A DNA stretch of 64,000 bases from Thermodesulfatator indicus DSM 15286 (GTDB taxonomy: Bacteria > Desulfobacterota > Thermodesulfobacteria > Thermodesulfobacteriales > Thermodesulfatatoraceae). The stretch covers positions 1,975,244 to 2,039,243 of the forward strand of contig NC_015681.1 of NCBI RefSeq assembly GCF_000217795.1, written 5' to 3'. The notes beneath the pieces were generated by a model, which worked only from the letters and a program-made list of their open reading frames with translations, did not search any database and was not told where the DNA came from. Shown piece after piece: positions 26,753-61,515 of this stretch (its first letter is position 1; each line of letters starts with the position of its first letter). The position numbers and the translations under genes are program-made.

Positions 26753-26840
26753 GCCCGGGTGGCGGAACTGGTAGACGCAGGGGACTTAAAATCCCCTGGG
26801 GTAATACCCCGTGCCGGTTCGACTCCGGCCCCGGGCACCA
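26753..26840 (+). tRNA. tRNA-Leu(UAA), probable attachment site of the integrated element
   Basis: This is an 88-base class II tRNA with acceptor GCCCGGG/CCCGGGC, anticodon loop CTTAAAA (anticodon UAA), a long variable arm and encoded CCA. All genes of the conjugative element begin downstream of its 3' end, and base composition and gene type change here. Integration into the 3' end of a tRNA is usual for such elements, but the second copy of the attachment core is not in the window. Confidence 0.95.
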
Positions 26841-28554: not shown

Positions 28555-29490
28555 ATGAAAGTACTTGTTTTTGATCCGGGATACGGCGATGTGAAGTGTG
28601 CACTGGTAGACACCGTGTCCGGTGAGGAACCCAGGCTATTCAAGTTTCCTACGTTGGTAGCTCGTGCTCGCGGTGGACTTGATTTCGGAGAGGGTAGCGG
28701 AGAAATTTTCTGGGCCGGGGAGAAGTGGCTGGTGGGAGAGGAGGCCGCACGGGCCGGACGGGTTGTATCAACCACAACGGATGGATTTTTAGAGAGATAC
28801 CTGCCGCTTCTTCTTGTTCGGGCATTACTTGAGAGCGGGGATAAAGAAGGCGTTGACGAGGTGGTGATAGCCGTAAGTCTTCATGATTGGCCGAGAAGGG
28901 AAGTTTTTGAGCGAGCAGCGGGGCGGCTCATGGTAAATGACCGCAGTTATTCCCACCGGGTACGGCTTATACCCCAGGGTTACGGGATATGGCTTGAGAC
29001 GCTATCGCCCTGGGACGGGATAGTTGTGGATATAGGTTTTCGTACGGTGGATGTTCTGGTTTTTGTTGACGGGAAGCCCGATGGCCGTCGCAGTTTTGGT
29101 GTAGCGGGAATGGGGGTGGTGGATTTTATTTCCGAGGCAGCGAAAATACTTTCGGCGAAGGCCCGGGTGGAGTTTTCTCCCGGAGAGGTGGCACATTTTC
29201 TACAGGAGGGCAATCCCGTTTTCAGGAGGTTCGGGGTGGAGGAGGAGCTCAAGTCGCGTGCCGGGGAATGGTCAGCAAGGCTCTGGACGAGTCTTATTGC
29301 GAAGGAAGACTTTAGCAGGGCCATGGCCCTACTGGGAAGGGTGGTGATAGCCGGTGGCGGAGCACGTTTTTTTGTAAAGCCGGATGAGGAGACGGCGGTA
29401 GATATGCAGGTTCTTGATGAAGAGCCTGAATTTGCGAATGTGAGGGGTTTTGCGCTCAGGCTACTGGAGGGTGGCGGTGAAGAAGAATAG
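28555..29490 (+). CDS. parM: ParM/StbA-like actin-family plasmid segregation ATPase
   Basis: This 311-residue protein has the three actin-fold motifs: phosphate 1 'VFDPGYGDVKCALVD' at the amino terminus, phosphate 2 'GIVVDIGFRTVDVLVFVDG' (about residue 158), and the adenosine motif 'VVIAGGGARFF' (about 265). ParM-type filaments push apart plasmid copies. Actin-type partition genes also occur in integrative elements (srpM of SXT/R391). It has a good ribosome-binding site (GGGGG) and overlaps the next small gene, as parM and parR often do. Confidence 0.82.
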   Translation: MKVLVFDPGYGDVKCALVDTVSGEEPRLFKFPTLVARARGGLDFGEGSGEIFWAGEKWLVGEEAARAGRVVSTTTDGFLERYLPLLLVRALLESGDKEGVDEVVIAVSLHDWPRREVFERAAGRLMVNDRSYSHRVRLIPQGYGIWLETLSPWDGIVVDIGFRTVDVLVFVDGKPDGRRSFGVAGMGVVDFISEAAKILSAKARVEFSPGEVAHFLQEGNPVFRRFGVEEELKSRAGEWSARLWTSLIAKEDFSRAMALLGRVVIAGGGARFFVKPDEETAVDMQVLDEEPEFANVRGFALRLLEGGGEEE

Positions 29491-43000: not shown

Positions 43001-43584
43001 AAACTTCCATAGGCGATATCTCCTTTAAAGATAGCGCGGGTAAAGAACAGCGTGAAATAGTTTCTGCATCTGCGAGTGTTAAAACTGCCGGAAGTAGCGG
43101 CCTGGATGTGGGTTCCGTCGGAACAATAATTCCCCAACCCCTGGCCAGGTTTCTTAAGTCTTTTAACTACGGTGGACAGGCGAGTCTGAAATATGAGCAA
43201 GCAAATATCGACAGAAAAATTGAAAGTGCAGAGGCTGCTTACAGGGTGATAGCCTCGGCCGTAAGACACAGACTAAATGAAGCCTACCGGGAAGCCCTGG
43301 AAACAGGAAGCAATGCTTCACTTGATATAGCGGCTATAAGTATTTTCAGTGCGGTAAATTCCCTTGAAGAACGAGCCGAACAGGCTGTTGATAAACATAT
43401 TAATATGGAAAAAAATAGCGGGAAAACCGACCTCACCGGCACTACGCCAACCGAATATGGTACCGGAAGTAAGATGAAGATGATGCGTCTCGGCGAAAAA
43501 ATAGATGTAAGGGGAATAGATCCGAAACAACAGGTCCCTTATAAGGTTGTTGATACCGACGAACTTATGAAAAAAGATAATTAA
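40012..43584 (+). CDS. traG: Conjugal transfer/mating-pair stabilisation protein TraG
   Basis: This 1190-residue inner-membrane protein starts with membrane helices ('GGITAFFILALTLTMATGMFDLLF', 'KLFFVAIFLYAAFLSGSA'). After a periplasmic stretch come further helices at about residues 345-480 ('IFYILACSLIPLALIFIGTG'). A long, hydrophilic carboxy-terminal domain follows. F TraG (938 residues) has this layout and acts in pilus assembly, mating-pair stabilisation and entry exclusion. The extra length is mostly in the carboxy-terminal half. It follows traH with a one-base overlap; its stop overlaps a minus-strand gene by 4 bp. Confidence 0.88.
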   Translation: MLNFPITVHGEFETMRQVLVFISSLVGSSAYKGGITAFFILALTLTMATGMFDLLFGDQRSLTSWVKLFFVAIFLYAAFLSGSARVALYDDVTGRSHVQGNIPPGIAAMMAIPNWVATEFEDLITSYLAPSLPISPFAYEYGIKMIGESYSGEMATALANIIDPQMWESAGNYVRDCVALLAAREASYAKKLYSGDNPYRAWSEAINYFFYTYTSLDSNGNPLPPGTPNESVSCKEAWDRLDKYFQNTRWQEVVDKFCTLMHYGTDATSISACRDTMSTVFSRYVINGLTVSPENIAKNVFAGKVFYSFLSSLDPSVEAARIASFARAQAELSGKGIVAQEWLPVMKTIFYILACSLIPLALIFIGTGTGPVKFLAGIFLWWAVWCGMDALMYCLWISRADGIFQVVSDGARLGLHGLEELWFLSSKAFALLGGMRSFGFMLAGAFVYTVFRFGGSVMAHFASAMVGSLSSGASKAAGYVSAEEEGWMKTYQALGKYAKEAASIRMTGSMNYFDRKAFAEAAETASNVKGFEGFRSAVGSNVLDLMSRARTGGLIQSTARGSAAANVPLSALAGYYGIELGKNVLTAAELKQQARVAGFSSVWDYLSAVAEGKAGSQVAEALRWNQMKGFFSGAAPTDLAGWLSGKQLPSFAIERKLSEWTGLSTYNFSDLKVKDFAWNTENGTPSLLQLAGTMNKQQLLTMADELKTKGLVNTAEGLRRIAEKYGAADVDLTLGPDGKLAHLNVNAGSEARSYDLYHDKDLTNLENYRTGNMALSAKTGEGREILQGLRAQALKRGWTNAVKYIDGLLANPERSAHLRWNTDKNGNLASLEVLEGAQWKRLDTGLNDTSLKKSRGISYENWNGSFQLGNSGYVVHGAKSLEYDPHTGRFAIKDALVMDLAGNTFIADLAGKGRAIKDQDGNITGIRVDDIKNLARETFVRKHDVRLPEFNLTPEKALNLAKNPIKLVDTLEKYKDNPLLRQAFVTEFSNKLAQGVQTSIGDISFKDSAGKEQREIVSASASVKTAGSSGLDVGSVGTIIPQPLARFLKSFNYGGQASLKYEQANIDRKIESAEAAYRVIASAVRHRLNEAYREALETGSNASLDIAAISIFSAVNSLEERAEQAVDKHINMEKNSGKTDLTGTTPTEYGTGSKMKMMRLGEKIDVRGIDPKQQVPYKVVDTDELMKKDN

Positions 43585-43883
43585 TCGTTATCTAGTATCC
43601 CTCTCGCAGGATCTAATTCGTAATCAACGTAATCACACCAATCATCCCATAACCACTCTTCCTGTCTTTTTAACCATTCTTCCTCCCGAAGGGGGCAGCA
43701 GGGACAGCAGGGCTCCGGCTCTCCCGGTTCCGCAAGCTCTCGGAAAAACTCCTTTAAGCCCTCCTTGGCCTCGGCCAGGTCGTCAAGGGCCGTACCCTCA
43801 CGGGCCCGGATTTCCATTATCTCCTCCGGAGTAGGCTCGTCCTCTAAAAATTTGTCTATCCACCTGCTCAGTAATTTAAACAT
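43581..43883 (-). CDS. Small acidic protein with a CCPCCP cluster
   Basis: This 100-residue, very acidic protein is of unknown family. An amino-terminal helix (MFKLLSRWIDKFL) and an acidic helix are followed by 'EPCCPCCPLREEEW' and a tryptophan-rich tail. The four cysteines could bind a metal. It is convergent with traG (4-bp overlap of stops). The upstream flank carries TCTCACCCCCTCTTACA at 43888-43904, one base different from the box in the 176-bp repeats. Confidence 0.6.
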   Translation of the reverse strand: MFKLLSRWIDKFLEDEPTPEEIMEIRAREGTALDDLAEAKEGLKEFFRELAEPGEPEPCCPCCPLREEEWLKRQEEWLWDDWCDYVDYELDPARGILDND

Positions 43884-43964: not shown

Positions 43965-44840
43965 TTATCCAAAAAAGGATTTTTGTACACCTTTAGCTTT
44001 TAGTCTTTCATTTAAAAGATCAAATTTATATTCTTTTATATCATTTCCTTTTTCTCTCAGCTCTTGAATTTTCTGTTGAAGTGGTGTTTTCAATATTTTT
44101 GATATAATTGTATTAAGTCCTTTAATTGATTTATCCAGTTCTTTCATTACTTCGTTAGCGAGCTCTTTGTAAAGGTTTCTTTCTATTTCTTTTTTGATAT
44201 TTGCCAAAGGAGAATCAGTCTTTGGAATAATATCAGCACATATTATTAACAGATGAAAAGCATCATAAAGCTGTTTAGCTATTGGATTTTCTATCTTATT
44301 TGTATCTCCAGCTTTTCGCCCATCTTTCATATCGATTTTTTCTCTACTTTCATTTTTATTGTCGCTAGAAGGAGGTTTTTTCGGTGATTTTAAAGGATCA
44401 AATATTGGCAAATGTGGTAATTGCAATAAATCCAAGAATTGTTCTGCCGCGTCATAACCACAAAAGAAATAACCATTGTCTTCAAAATTTTGTCTATTTT
44501 TAAACCAAAAACAGTAATAACGATCCGTTAATATATGACCCGTACAACTAATTTTTTTCTGTCCATATAGTAATCGAACATGAGCAACTGGCTTTAAATT
44601 ATATTCTTTTATTACCTTTTTTCTGGTGCTAGTACCTCTGCAATAAATCTTTCCTATTATTTTTACATTTGAAGCACGAGGATGATTTCTTCCTTTTTTA
44701 GGTTTAAATATTACTTTAGCATCTTTTTCTGGGACGCCCATTATAATATCTCCAATATTAAAAAAGCGATCTATCTTGTCCTCTCCAACAATAACTCCAT
44801 ATTCCTTTTTGCTATAATAGTACTTAATCTTCCCTAACAT
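43965..44840 (-). CDS. Cold-shock-domain protein with long carboxy-terminal extension
   Basis: Residues 1-62 form a cold-shock/OB domain: 'GKIKYYYSKKEYGVIVGEDKIDRFFNIGDII' and 'KVIFKPKKGRNHPRASNVKII' follow the CSD pattern. The aromatic RNP1 residues are only partly kept (YGVIVGED for GFGFI). About 230 residues of unknown, lysine-rich sequence follow, with a helical tail. It starts 13 bp after the stop of the exonuclease-like gene and has an AAGG site, so the two are one operon. The AT-rich composition contrasts with the tra genes. Nucleic-acid binding is likely; the role is unknown. Confidence 0.7.
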   Translation of the reverse strand: MLGKIKYYYSKKEYGVIVGEDKIDRFFNIGDIIMGVPEKDAKVIFKPKKGRNHPRASNVKIIGKIYCRGTSTRKKVIKEYNLKPVAHVRLLYGQKKISCTGHILTDRYYCFWFKNRQNFEDNGYFFCGYDAAEQFLDLLQLPHLPIFDPLKSPKKPPSSDNKNESREKIDMKDGRKAGDTNKIENPIAKQLYDAFHLLIICADIIPKTDSPLANIKKEIERNLYKELANEVMKELDKSIKGLNTIISKILKTPLQQKIQELREKGNDIKEYKFDLLNERLKAKGVQKSFFG

Positions 44841-44853
44841 AATTATAACCTTG

Positions 44854-46179
44854 CTACTTAATACTTATTCCCAATAGAATACCAGCAATAAATGCTATAA
44901 ATGTTAGAATAAATCCGTAGAAAATTACTTTTCGTTTAGTTTCTTTATTGTTTTTTAGATATATGTCCTTAAGTTCCGTTTTTTCTTTCTCATAATCTTT
45001 CATAAATTTTTCGAGTTCCTCTTCTTTCAATCTTTTTTCTGCTTCCAAACGCCCGAGTTTTTCTCTATTTTCCGAAATTTCTCTGTTCAATCTTCTTATC
45101 TGTTCTTCTTTTTCCTTTAAGTTTGTCTCTTTTTCCCTTATTTTCCTTTTAAGCTCTTCGTTTTCTCCTTTATGTTTTGCCAGTTCTTGGCGGGTCTCAT
45201 TCATCTCCTGAACAAGACGTTGCCTTTCCTTTTCTCTTTCTTCTTTTTCTTTTTCAAGAGCTACCAATTTCCCTCGGAGCTCCTCGGCTGCCTTCTCTTG
45301 CCTTCGCCTCTGTATCTCCAAAGCTATATAATTACCCGCCTCAGTAGGTGTCGTAGTAACTACATCGGAAAATATTTCTATTAGATAACCCCTGTTTTCC
45401 GTATGTCCCAGCCCGAGAATTTTGAAAGACTCTTTGGCCGCCCAAGCCTCAACCACTCTTAGATCGTTAAACACCTCAAACTGAACGTCCTCTCCTCCAC
45501 CGCGCAACATTACCAATACAGTCCCTTGGGCCTCGTTTATGGCTTGGACTATTTCCTCCGCAGAATCTATCTTCACGGGAATGGTTCTATAATTTTTAAT
45601 AAATTCCCGGACCGACTCCAGTTTCCCTTCAAAATCCTGATAGGCCGTATCTACTAGAGGTCGTATGACGGTAATGCTGATATCATCCGGGAAAAGCCTT
45701 TTATAATGAGGAAATCTCTTCCAGAGTTCTATCAGGTTGATTTCCTTTTTTTGGGTCTCCAAAAACTCTTCATCAGCTTTTTGTATCAGATCCAAAAAAT
45801 TTACTTTTATAATAGGTTTTAAGGAATATGCGTCTACTTTTAAATTAATAGTTCCTAAAATATATGTGTCACTTTCAAACTCCTCTATATCATTTTTAAA
45901 AATATCTTCGACAAGTCTGGGAGGAATCCATATATCTATCGTAGATCCTTCCTCTGAAAAAAGTTTTCCAAAATAATAATATTTTCCCTTCTGTTTCCGA
46001 CTTAGCCGAACTGTCCCCCTTATTTTTATCTGATTTAAATAAGGTTCTTTAAACTTTTCCGTTAAAGAATGAAAACAACTATCAACAAAATTGTAGAGTT
46101 CTTCTACAGAGTCAAAATATCGGTATAATTCTCCATTATTCGTGTCTGGATAAAAATTATTCTCCATCCCCTTATCCAT
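44854..46179 (-). CDS. Exonuclease VII large-subunit-like protein (XseA-like) with coiled coil and C-terminal membrane anchor
   Basis: This 441-residue protein opens with an OB-like domain ('IKIRGTVRLSRKQKGKYYYFGKLF', about residues 50-90). A region matching the XseA catalytic domain follows: 'ITVIRPLVDTAYQDFEGKL', 'VLVMLRGGGEDVQFEVFNDLRVVEAW' and 'ILGLGHTENRGYLIEIFSDVVTTTPTEAGNYI' (XseA: RGGGSxEDLxxFN, GHETDxTxxDxxAD.RAPTPxxAAE). Of residues reported essential in E. coli, the Asp in YQDF, Arg226 and His259 are kept, but the GHETD aspartate is Asn262. A long charged coiled coil (about 290-410) leads to a membrane helix (416-438). ExoVII has a coiled coil that binds XseB, but no membrane anchor. 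No xseB is seen here. Start is ATG 46179; the frame extends upstream only through a poor TTG. Confidence 0.75.
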   Translation of the reverse strand: MDKGMENNFYPDTNNGELYRYFDSVEELYNFVDSCFHSLTEKFKEPYLNQIKIRGTVRLSRKQKGKYYYFGKLFSEEGSTIDIWIPPRLVEDIFKNDIEEFESDTYILGTINLKVDAYSLKPIIKVNFLDLIQKADEEFLETQKKEINLIELWKRFPHYKRLFPDDISITVIRPLVDTAYQDFEGKLESVREFIKNYRTIPVKIDSAEEIVQAINEAQGTVLVMLRGGGEDVQFEVFNDLRVVEAWAAKESFKILGLGHTENRGYLIEIFSDVVTTTPTEAGNYIALEIQRRRQEKAAEELRGKLVALEKEKEEREKERQRLVQEMNETRQELAKHKGENEELKRKIREKETNLKEKEEQIRRLNREISENREKLGRLEAEKRLKEEELEKFMKDYEKEKTELKDIYLKNNKETKRKVIFYGFILTFIAFIAGILLGISIK

Positions 46180-46832: not shown

Positions 46833-48149
46833 ATGAAATTAAAAGAAAAAAAATATCTATTAAAGGAAATAGGTAATGATCTAAAAATTGATAAAAAATT
46901 ACTAGAAAACTATCTATTACCTAGAATTGCTTGTCTTTACGATTTATCTAAATATTTTTTGGTTGAAAAATATACCCAAAGAGAATGGAAAGAATTAATA
47001 ACTCTTCATTATATAAATACTCTGTATTCTCCTTCAAATGAAGTTTTTAGAATTCATTTTTTTATCAAAAATTCTGTAGAACCAGAAAATTATCTCGGTT
47101 TTATTACCTTAAGAGATTTGCCTGAACCAAATGCGTTGCTTTCTTTTGTTTATCCTAACTTTCCGATTTTTCTTCCACAGTATAAGAAAAAATTCCAAAT
47201 GGAAGATACAAAATTTTTTGTAATGGATTATCCTAAGCCCGTCCATCTTTCCTTTAAGGAAATGTTCATTCAGACTTTTCCTTTTTACTCCCAAGATGGT
47301 GTAGTTGCTAGATGTGCGCATGCTGATATTGTAATGGTTTGTAAATATTTACATAAAAAATGGAATTTTAATAGTGTTCATATTCATGATATAGTGAATA
47401 GTTATTCTTTTTATCGAACAAAACTCTTCCCTAGTGATGGTTTATTAATTTATCAAATTGCAGAGATTTTTGCTAACAATAGGATAGATATATGTATAAA
47501 AAGATATGGCGATTTTAAAAAAGACTTCCTAAATATTTTAGATTCTGTAATTGAAAGTGGCTTTCCTGTAATTTTAGCTACTAAACAACATGTTAGTGTA
47601 TTGATTGGTCATACTTTAAAGAATAATAGTGAAAAGGATTATATAATCTATGACGATTCTGGGTATTTTCTATAAGAATTTTTCGGAAAAGAGCCTAGCT
47701 TTTTTGCAATAGTATCTAAGGACGATATTCAAAAACTTTTAGATGATAGTTCTTATCTTATTTTCCCGGAACCTAATAGAGTGTTTTTCCCTTATCCCAG
47801 ACTTAAAGAAGCTTTTGAAGCATATATTTATTCTACTATAAAATCTTTTATAGCAGAAAATAATTTAGGTAAACTACAAAAAGTTAGAACTCTCATAGCA
47901 GAAAATAGTGTAATAAAGACTTTTTTGAAAGAAAATGCTAAATTCATTGTAAATGAAAATAATTTTAATTTATTTCTGGATCAGAATTTGCCACATTTCC
48001 TGTGGTATTTAGAAGTATATTTACAAAATTTAAATGGTATTTTAGCTTTTTCGGCGGATCCAACTAAACATATTTTTACAGTTTATTCACCTTTTTTTGA
48101 TTTTACGGCCCTGCTTACAAAACCTCTAGGAATTTTATCTTGTTACTAA
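46833..48149 (+). pseudogene. C39-like cysteine peptidase gene interrupted by an in-frame TAA
   Basis: The frame is open from 46833 to 48149 except for one TAA at 47673-47675; both parts are in the same frame, so this is not a frameshift. The first part (280 residues) has papain/C39-like motifs: Gln154 and Cys161 in 'SQDGVVARCAHADIVMV', His253 in 'GFPVILATKQHVSVLIGHT' and Asp274 in 'YIIYDDSG'. The stop falls six residues after this aspartate. The second part (157 codons: EFFGKEPSFFAIVSKDD...) continues smoothly. It may be a nonsense mutant (CAA to TAA fits), a truncated but active peptidase, or a sequencing error. A small gene follows. Composition is AT-rich. Confidence 0.65.
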
Positions 48150-60524: not shown

Positions 60525-61421
60525 TCAGGCTGCTTTCTTCTCCTCAGAAGCTTCTACCATCCCGGCCTGTTCCAGGAGCCAGTCGCAGGCCTCCTGAGCC
60601 AGCCGGGCCGCTGTGAAGATAGCTTTTGTATCTTTTTCCAGTACCCGGATCCACGATCCTATGTATTCCGGGTGCTGGAGTTTTCGGATGTCGAGACCTA
60701 CGTGGGCCCCTAGAAAGGCGGAGCCCATTTCCGCTACAAGCTCTTCCATCGCATAGGCCCGGTCTCCGAATCTGCCCGAGAGGTCGCGATTCAGACGGCT
60801 CGGATGTCCGGTCCAATGCGTTATTTCATGAAAGGCCGTGGCGTAGAAGTCGTCCCTCGACCTGAACGCACGACGTGGTGGTAGGACGATTACGTCCCGC
60901 TCGGGATAATAGACTGCTTGGCCTCCCCACCTTATTCTAGGGAGGGAAAGCAGCCTTTCGGCCGATAACAGAACATCAGCGGGTGTAACCCTTTCCCTGG
61001 TTTCCGGGAGGCGCAGATTCTCGCACTGTTCCACGTTAAAGACCGTATAGGCCCGGGCGAAGGGAACTTTTCTGACCACGGGTTCTCCTGTTTCCGCGTC
61101 GTAGACAGGTTTGCCCTCGTGATCCTTTTCTTGGACCTCGACGAATTTCCAGAAGATCACGGCCGTCCCTTTTTCCCCGGGACTCACGTATCCGCCGAGC
61201 TTTCTCGCTTCCCTGTATGTGAGCCAGAGGTTTGATGTGAAACCCCTTTTCCAGGCGGCGATGTTCAAAAGCAATACGTTGATCCCTCGGTAGGTTCGAC
61301 CGTAGAAGGCGTTTCTGTGCCCTCCTGTGGTGGCGGTTTTCCATGGCCTGATCCAGGGACCGATTCCCTTTTTCAAGGTCTCAATGACCATCTGTGTGAC
61401 TTCTTTGTAAACGTTCTTCAT
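60525..61421 (-). CDS. ardC: ArdC-like antirestriction protein (ssDNA-binding domain plus zincin)
   Basis: This 298-residue protein has an amino-terminal ssDNA-binding domain of the ArdC type: 'YKEVTQMVIETLKKGIGPWIRPWK', 'GRTYRGINVLLL', 'YVSPGEKGTAVIFWKF'. A zinc-metallopeptidase domain follows with HEITH in 'FYATAFHEITHWTGH' (about residue 197) and 'YAMEELVAEMGSAFL'. ArdC proteins protect entering single strands from host defences. ATG 61421 follows GGAGGGAG. A strong hairpin element lies 35 bp upstream. Confidence 0.9.
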   Translation of the reverse strand: MKNVYKEVTQMVIETLKKGIGPWIRPWKTATTGGHRNAFYGRTYRGINVLLLNIAAWKRGFTSNLWLTYREARKLGGYVSPGEKGTAVIFWKFVEVQEKDHEGKPVYDAETGEPVVRKVPFARAYTVFNVEQCENLRLPETRERVTPADVLLSAERLLSLPRIRWGGQAVYYPERDVIVLPPRRAFRSRDDFYATAFHEITHWTGHPSRLNRDLSGRFGDRAYAMEELVAEMGSAFLGAHVGLDIRKLQHPEYIGSWIRVLEKDTKAIFTAARLAQEACDWLLEQAGMVEASEEKKAA

Positions 61422-61455
61422 GGCTCCCTCCTTCGGCGAGATTTTTCCGGCCGGA

Positions 61456-61515
61456 GGAGGGAGAGCGGAATGATCCCCCAACCGGGGGAAGCTCTCGCCT
61501 CCCCCGGCCGGGGAG
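61456..61515 (-). promoter_or_regulatory. Structured hairpin element 1, upstream of ardC
   Basis: On the plus strand: GGAGGGAGAGC, CCCCCAACCGGGGG inside a GAGAGC/GCTCTC outer stem, then a separate hairpin CTCCCCCGGCCGGGGAG. The same order of motifs, with compensating differences, occurs at 62889-62947. On the minus strand it forms the leader of ardC. It could be a single-strand promoter active in the recipient, or a regulatory RNA leader. Confidence 0.6.

Follow-up and report, generated by a model that had tools for sequence, protein, structure and literature searches.

Exonuclease VII (ExoVII) is a soluble repair enzyme formed by XseA and XseB. It is metal-independent and acts on the ends of ssDNA. 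Four residues of XseA, D155, R205, H238, and D241, are reportedly needed for catalysis. No description of a membrane-anchored ExoVII was found in the literature searched. To our knowledge, few systems attack DNA at its entry, and those that do (SNIPE, Zorya) are recent. SNIPE is a nuclease bound to the membrane that cleaves phage DNA while it is being injected; its tether prevents self-damage, and the untethered form is toxic (PMC13190303). In Kiwa, another membrane-linked defense, the KwaB protein binds DNA without cleaving it (PMC12904381).

A two-gene unit that includes an ExoVII-like gene was analyzed in a 64,000-nucleotide stretch of the Thermodesulfatator indicus genome, referred to here as the window. 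The unit consists of the following genes:

44854..46179, minus strand: P0001, tail-anchored XseA-like protein (gene 1), 441 aa
43965..44840, minus strand: P0002, partner protein (gene 2), 291 aa, starting 13 bp past the gene 1 stop

Both genes and their 13-bp spacing agree with the original prediction for this locus. The motif AAGG precedes the ATG of gene 2.

Like SNIPE (PMC13190303), P0001 has a single-pass, membrane-tethered nuclease architecture with a cytoplasmic head, the side of the head being predicted for P0001. SNIPE combines a GIY-YIG nuclease with DUF4041 and an N-terminal anchor, whereas neither P0001 nor P0002 has such Pfam matches. Our best reading, by analogy, is that the unit would work like SNIPE but is not SNIPE. 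Qat, Lamassu, and other known systems were considered and rejected as identities for the unit: the PADLOC matches were limited to coiled coils and to weak hits on CSD_V and PDC-M14A, and neither protein is a core protein of such a system.

The unit is carried by an integrative conjugative element

The unit is found in an F-type integrative conjugative element (ICE) of 47.2 kb, which has 56-bp att repeats at tRNA-Leu. The host genome is complete (2.32 Mb). The left end of the element is as follows:

26785..26840, plus strand: attL, 56-bp repeat, at the 3' end of tRNA-Leu(TAA) (26753-26840)

A second, exact copy of the repeat lies 47,205 bp downstream, beyond the window (L110), where a tRNA gene was not found. 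Just inside this copy is an ORF of 347 residues (L110, 8977-10020), judged by eye to be tyrosine-integrase-like. The element is integrated and conjugative, and its ends are defined. The patch containing the unit is flanked by the element's traG and ssb. TraE, TraK, TraB/TrbI, TraH, and TraG are encoded on one flank, and Ssb, TraU, TraW, TraN, TraC, and ArdC on the other. With transfer genes present and the att repeats bounding the element, the proposed placement of the unit as cargo of a conjugative element holds. A traG relative is present in genome G029, where the contig stops just past traG.

The unit (43965-46179) has a GC content of 0.336 compared to 0.449 for the window, which puts it in the lowest 3% among stretches of equal size and fits the description of it as AT-rich. 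The low-GC patch extends to ~48.2 kb and includes two further plus-strand ORFs. Promoter and terminator scans of the unit gave nothing above shuffled expectation.

One explanation for this location is that the unit serves the element's own transfer by trimming or handling ICE ssDNA at the membrane during conjugation. Its place within the transfer region, with traG on one side and ssb on the other, fits this explanation, as does the presence of two relatives of P0001 on mobilizable or conjugative plasmids. However, the GC content (0.34 vs 0.45), the strand opposite to the adjoining traH-traG, and the absence of close relatives from most of the phylum give the unit the look of a passenger, and we find a transfer function quite improbable. 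The unit looks like accessory cargo, or passenger DNA, of the 47-kb ICE.

Gene 1 encodes a divergent ExoVII large-subunit homolog

Judged from its sequence and predicted structure, P0001 is a genuine but divergent homolog of the ExoVII large subunit. A profile search had been named beforehand as the test of the proposed XseA relation. P0001 matched PF02601 with an E-value of 7e-19 and 68.9 bits, above the gathering cut-off of 35.9. The match to TIGR00237 (E 5e-15) reached 55.6 bits, far below the equivalog cut-off of 180. In a profile-profile comparison (hhalign) using P0001 and three tail-anchored relatives as the query, residues 26-293 aligned with canonical XseA at 99.6% probability. This alignment includes the OB region, in keeping with the OB-like domain that had been proposed.

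The top fold match to the AlphaFold model of P0001 was E. coli ExoVII (8txr, the H238A form), with a Foldseek E-value of 2.7e-10 and a VIA Z of 17.1 compared to 10.5 for the next row. The model was built with eight viral-contig XseA proteins as the alignment and leans to canonical XseA since canonical XseA was in that alignment. Its confident core spans residues ~165-280, and the N-terminus and tail are poorly modelled. The parts of P0001 are as follows:

45775..46104, minus strand: N-terminal OB-like region, residues ~26-135, from the profile-profile alignment, with low AlphaFold confidence and no Pfam hit
45301..45687, minus strand: ExoVII catalytic region, residues ~165-293, with D182, R226 (RGGG), H259, N262, and TPTEAG at 277-282
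44950..45348, minus strand: long predicted helix or coiled coil, residues 278-410 (~130 residues), from the AlphaFold model
44872..44928, minus strand: predicted C-terminal transmembrane tail, residues 418-436, with KETKRK before it and GISIK after it

P0001 shares with canonical XseA (PF02601, TIGR00237; 8txr) the OB region and catalytic core, the RGGG and GH motifs, and the long helix. It differs in its distance from the equivalog family and in lacking the RGYS segment, a local XseB, and the Asp equivalent to D241. Three of the four catalytic residues are kept, with D182, R226, and H259 being equivalent to D155, R205, and H238; D241 is replaced by N262, which is the Asn predicted in place of the GHETD aspartate. 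The C-terminal RGYS segment that follows the coiled coil in canonical XseA is absent and the membrane tail is found instead, while RGY is invariant in 9/9 canonical XseA proteins. Ordinary XseA and XseB are encoded elsewhere in the host genome. As predicted, there is no XseB in the window, and the only genome copy above the cut-off adjoins the chromosomal xseA. Relatives of P0001 were not found in viral contigs and phages.

The very long coiled coil that was proposed appears in the model as one helix (278-410), and 58% of residues 287-415 are charged. The membrane helix predicted at the carboxy terminus is also well marked. The tail helix (418-436; 19 residues, within the last 35) has a mean Kyte-Doolittle value of 2.64, which was equalled in only 1 of 20,000 shuffles. 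Because the basic KETKRK precedes the tail and five residues follow it, the positive-inside rule predicts a cytoplasmic head. From this charge pattern, the head would stand up to ~20 nm off the inner membrane.

P0001 belongs to a small tail-anchored family

Tail hydrophobicity was compared across 45 XseA-like proteins. Nine were tail-anchored (≥1.58) and 36 were canonical (≤1.09). The nine divide into a divergent set and a haloarchaeal one. The divergent set, without a neighboring XseB, consists of P0001, proteins on plasmids of Sulfuricystis, Azospira, and Paenibacillus, and a protein from genome G224. Three additional tail-anchored members, beyond the nine, were found in the family of G224, which is in the same phylum. 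The haloarchaeal plasmid proteins (L015, L084, L085, and L086) are like P0001 in ending with a membrane helix. Unlike P0001, they keep an adjacent XseB and the catalytic Asp, are annotated as ordinary xseA, and form a separate branch nested among canonical XseA. A candidate from genome G163 (L041/L070) was excluded from the family since it lacks the membrane tail. By sequence comparison, the membrane tail is shared across the family and not unique to P0001, and the Asn is not unique to it either. The family of tail-anchored XseA-like proteins to which P0001 belongs is small.

The tree branches joining P0001, L069, and L007/L008 are well supported but very long, and the tree program cautions that joins of this kind may be spurious. 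Among 395 genomes of the phylum, clear family-level matches were found only in T. indicus itself and G224, making gene 1 rare and patchy. The chromosomal contexts of two tail-anchored members, L096 and L097, look ordinary.

Asn is found at position 262 in P0001, L007, L008, L014, and L095, while Asp is kept there in L069, L096, L097, and the haloarchaeal proteins. The Asn-bearing pair L007/L008 has a dN/dS of 0.08, suggesting that the Asn is not mere decay. Another possible explanation is that P0001 is a catalytically dead, membrane-tethered scaffold or sensor. The Asn would abolish cutting, the OB region and core would bind DNA ends, and the partner would signal or act. N262 stands in place of a reportedly catalytic Asp, its presence in four relatives fits this explanation, and KwaB of Kiwa is an earlier case of a defense protein that binds DNA but does not cleave it. 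Against this, H259, R226, and D182 are kept in P0001, and the tail-anchored L069, L096, and L097 keep the Asp. In addition, activity may survive the Asn because the change is mild and ExoVII does not depend on a metal. We regard a dead sensor as unlikely.

Gene 2 joins a cold-shock-like N-terminus to a separate module

P0002 has two parts:

44655..44840, minus strand: weak cold-shock-like domain, residues 1-62, with degenerate RNP motifs (KEYGVI for KGYGFI)
43965..44666, minus strand: defense-island module, residues ~59-291, with conserved LTD.YYCF, CG..A, and F.PL and a helical C-terminus

The original prediction described the partner as a cold-shock-domain protein, which is correct only in part. 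The N-terminus has a weak likeness to PF00313 (E 0.03), with 14.6 bits compared to a gathering cut-off of 27. Matches to CSD_V (E 0.007) and a Thermotoga CSP (E 0.006) are also weak but consistent. This part may form an OB barrel with RNP1 and RNP2; the motifs are degenerate, with RNP1 reading KEYGVI, and the model confidence is ~30. Burkholderia CSD proteins match only the N-terminal 62-75 residues of P0002. The retron CSD effectors (Se72 family, PADLOC CSD_V) are weakly similar to the same domain, but membership of P0002 in that family was rejected at 9.9 bits compared to the family cut-off of 82. From these similarities, the gene 2 product is a putative nucleic-acid-binding protein.

What had been overlooked is that residues ~59-291 form a separate, widespread module. 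This ~205-residue module has 34-44% identity to standalone proteins of ~200-220 residues. These are found on plasmids of Vibrio, Staphylococcus, Lysinibacillus, and others, and on contigs of Paenibacillus, Brevibacillus, Cytobacillus, Robertmurraya, Staphylococcus, and a Neisseriaceae bacterium. The cold-shock part is missing from all of the standalone copies. Purifying selection acts on the module (dN/dS 0.10-0.21), which is rare: within one family, 4 of 198 genomes carry it, and two of these four were seeds. No family covers the module in Pfam, NCBIfam, PADLOC, and PHROG scans, which gave only weak, partial matches. Model confidence is ~80-95 across most of residues 70-150 and 181-291. The best fold match (VIA Z 5.7) is not convincing and falls under the typical level for unmatched models, which does not in itself show a new fold. 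A search for phage relatives of P0002 found none.

The module lies near defense genes in other bacteria

Recognized defense genes were found within a few kilobases of the module at 10 of 23 loci, a count that describes the neighbors examined and is not a test against random genes. This proximity supports the defense flavor proposed for the unit. Among the known systems near the module in other bacteria are Qat, Lamassu, and Gabija, along with Hachiman-like and restriction genes. QatB, QatC, and QatD are directly upstream of the module at L022, and the same order was read from sequence similarity and gene order at L023 and L025. QatABCD is by the module at L099, where QatBCD was read in the same way. 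LmuA and LmuB (L034), GajA (L098), a HamB-like helicase with a DrmC-like protein (L024), MkoC-like and E1-E2-like proteins (L031), a type IIG restriction-methylase (L012), and the SIR2 protein PDC-S25 (L021) are near further copies.

In the Qat operons of Paenibacillus and Brevibacillus (L022, L023, L025, and L099), the module comes directly after QatD, like a fifth Qat gene.

The module represents a compact, patchy family near at least seven kinds of defense gene, and the searches of Pfam, NCBIfam, PADLOC, and PHROGs gave no name for it. A defense screen could take it up as a concrete candidate.

The two genes were found together only at this locus

Co-occurrence in other genomes had been set beforehand as the test of a conserved two-gene system, and the results do not support such a system. 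No XseA-like gene was found near module copies in the first set of loci or at L098 and L099. Ten genomes with the module have XseA at ordinary scores only, and three plasmids with the module have no XseA. Conversely, among 11 genomes or records that encode a tail-anchored XseA, none contained the module. Within the searches made, which were not exhaustive, the pair occurs together only in T. indicus, and this weakens the claim of conservation.

What still hints at a partnership is the operon-like arrangement, together with the putative nucleic-acid-binding domain fused to the module. The two could be unrelated, adjacent cargo genes, with the XseA-like protein acting alone and the partner being a separate one-gene defense item. 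Every other module copy and every other tail-anchored XseA was found apart, as this explanation expects. It is harder to reconcile with the 13-bp spacing on one strand and with the fusion of the module to a cold-shock-like part, which was seen only here among the copies and suggests adaptation to a nucleic-acid partner. Unrelated genes are, in our judgment, fairly unlikely.

As an observation, an ExoVII-like, membrane-tailed gene with a partner was confirmed. The interpretation was supported in its ExoVII relation, tail, missing local XseB, Asn, ICE cargo, and defense flavor, but not in its conserved pair.

Proposed action on DNA at the membrane

We favor, tentatively and with somewhat less than even confidence, the reading that the unit is an ICE-borne defense or exclusion cargo acting on DNA at the membrane, with the gene 2 product sensing or presenting the target. 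We rate it ahead of a dead sensor, a transfer role, and two unrelated genes. It draws on the homology of P0001, its hydrophobic tail, its three kept catalytic residues, the module's defense neighborhood, the purifying selection on relatives, and the precedent of SNIPE. The data themselves show the homology, the tail, the Asn, the ICE location, that neighborhood, and that selection, from which topology, partnership, substrate, cutting, and a defense outcome are inferred. An ICE with ArdC anti-restriction is a further context counted in its favor. Counted against it are the uniqueness of the pair, the change in one of four reported catalytic residues, the ordinary-looking context of L096 and L097, the purely descriptive nature of the 10/23 count, and the lack of a promoter above shuffles.

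Under the defense or exclusion reading, gene 1 would have lost the canonical C-terminal segment, along with a local XseB, and gained a long helical stalk and a membrane tail in their place. The head would bind, and probably trim, ssDNA ends at the entry point of foreign DNA, while tethering would keep it away from the chromosome. The entering DNA could be met through conjugation, transformation, or phage infection, and the gene 2 product may sense or present the target.

A mobile-element XseA-like lineage in which a membrane tail has taken the place of the canonical C-terminus points to a role other than repair, perhaps an attack on entering DNA. More broadly, tail-anchored XseA-like proteins could be recurrent membrane-tethered ssDNA nucleases of mobile elements, directed against incoming conjugative or phage DNA. 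Here, one of them would have gained as its partner a nucleic-acid-binding form of the widespread, hitherto unnamed defense-island module. This wider proposal is a doubtful one at present.

Other open reading frames of the element

Two AT-rich, plus-strand ORFs adjoin the unit (46833-47675 and 47781-48149) and are possibly a single, broken gene. The first is papain/C39-like by eye, with a Cys-His-Asp pattern; it has no Pfam family above the cut-off and no plasmid homolog. Between traG and the unit is a minus-strand ORF (43581-43883) of 100 residues. Its product is acidic and cysteine-containing (CCPCCP), without a family match, and a consensus-like promoter (TTGACA-17-GATAAT) lies upstream. The ArdC-type anti-restriction protein of the same element is encoded at 60525-61478 on the minus strand. 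Close to the element's left end, an actin-like (ALP/MreB-like) protein is encoded at 28555-29490 on the plus strand, which suggests a plasmid-like segregation function within the integrated element.
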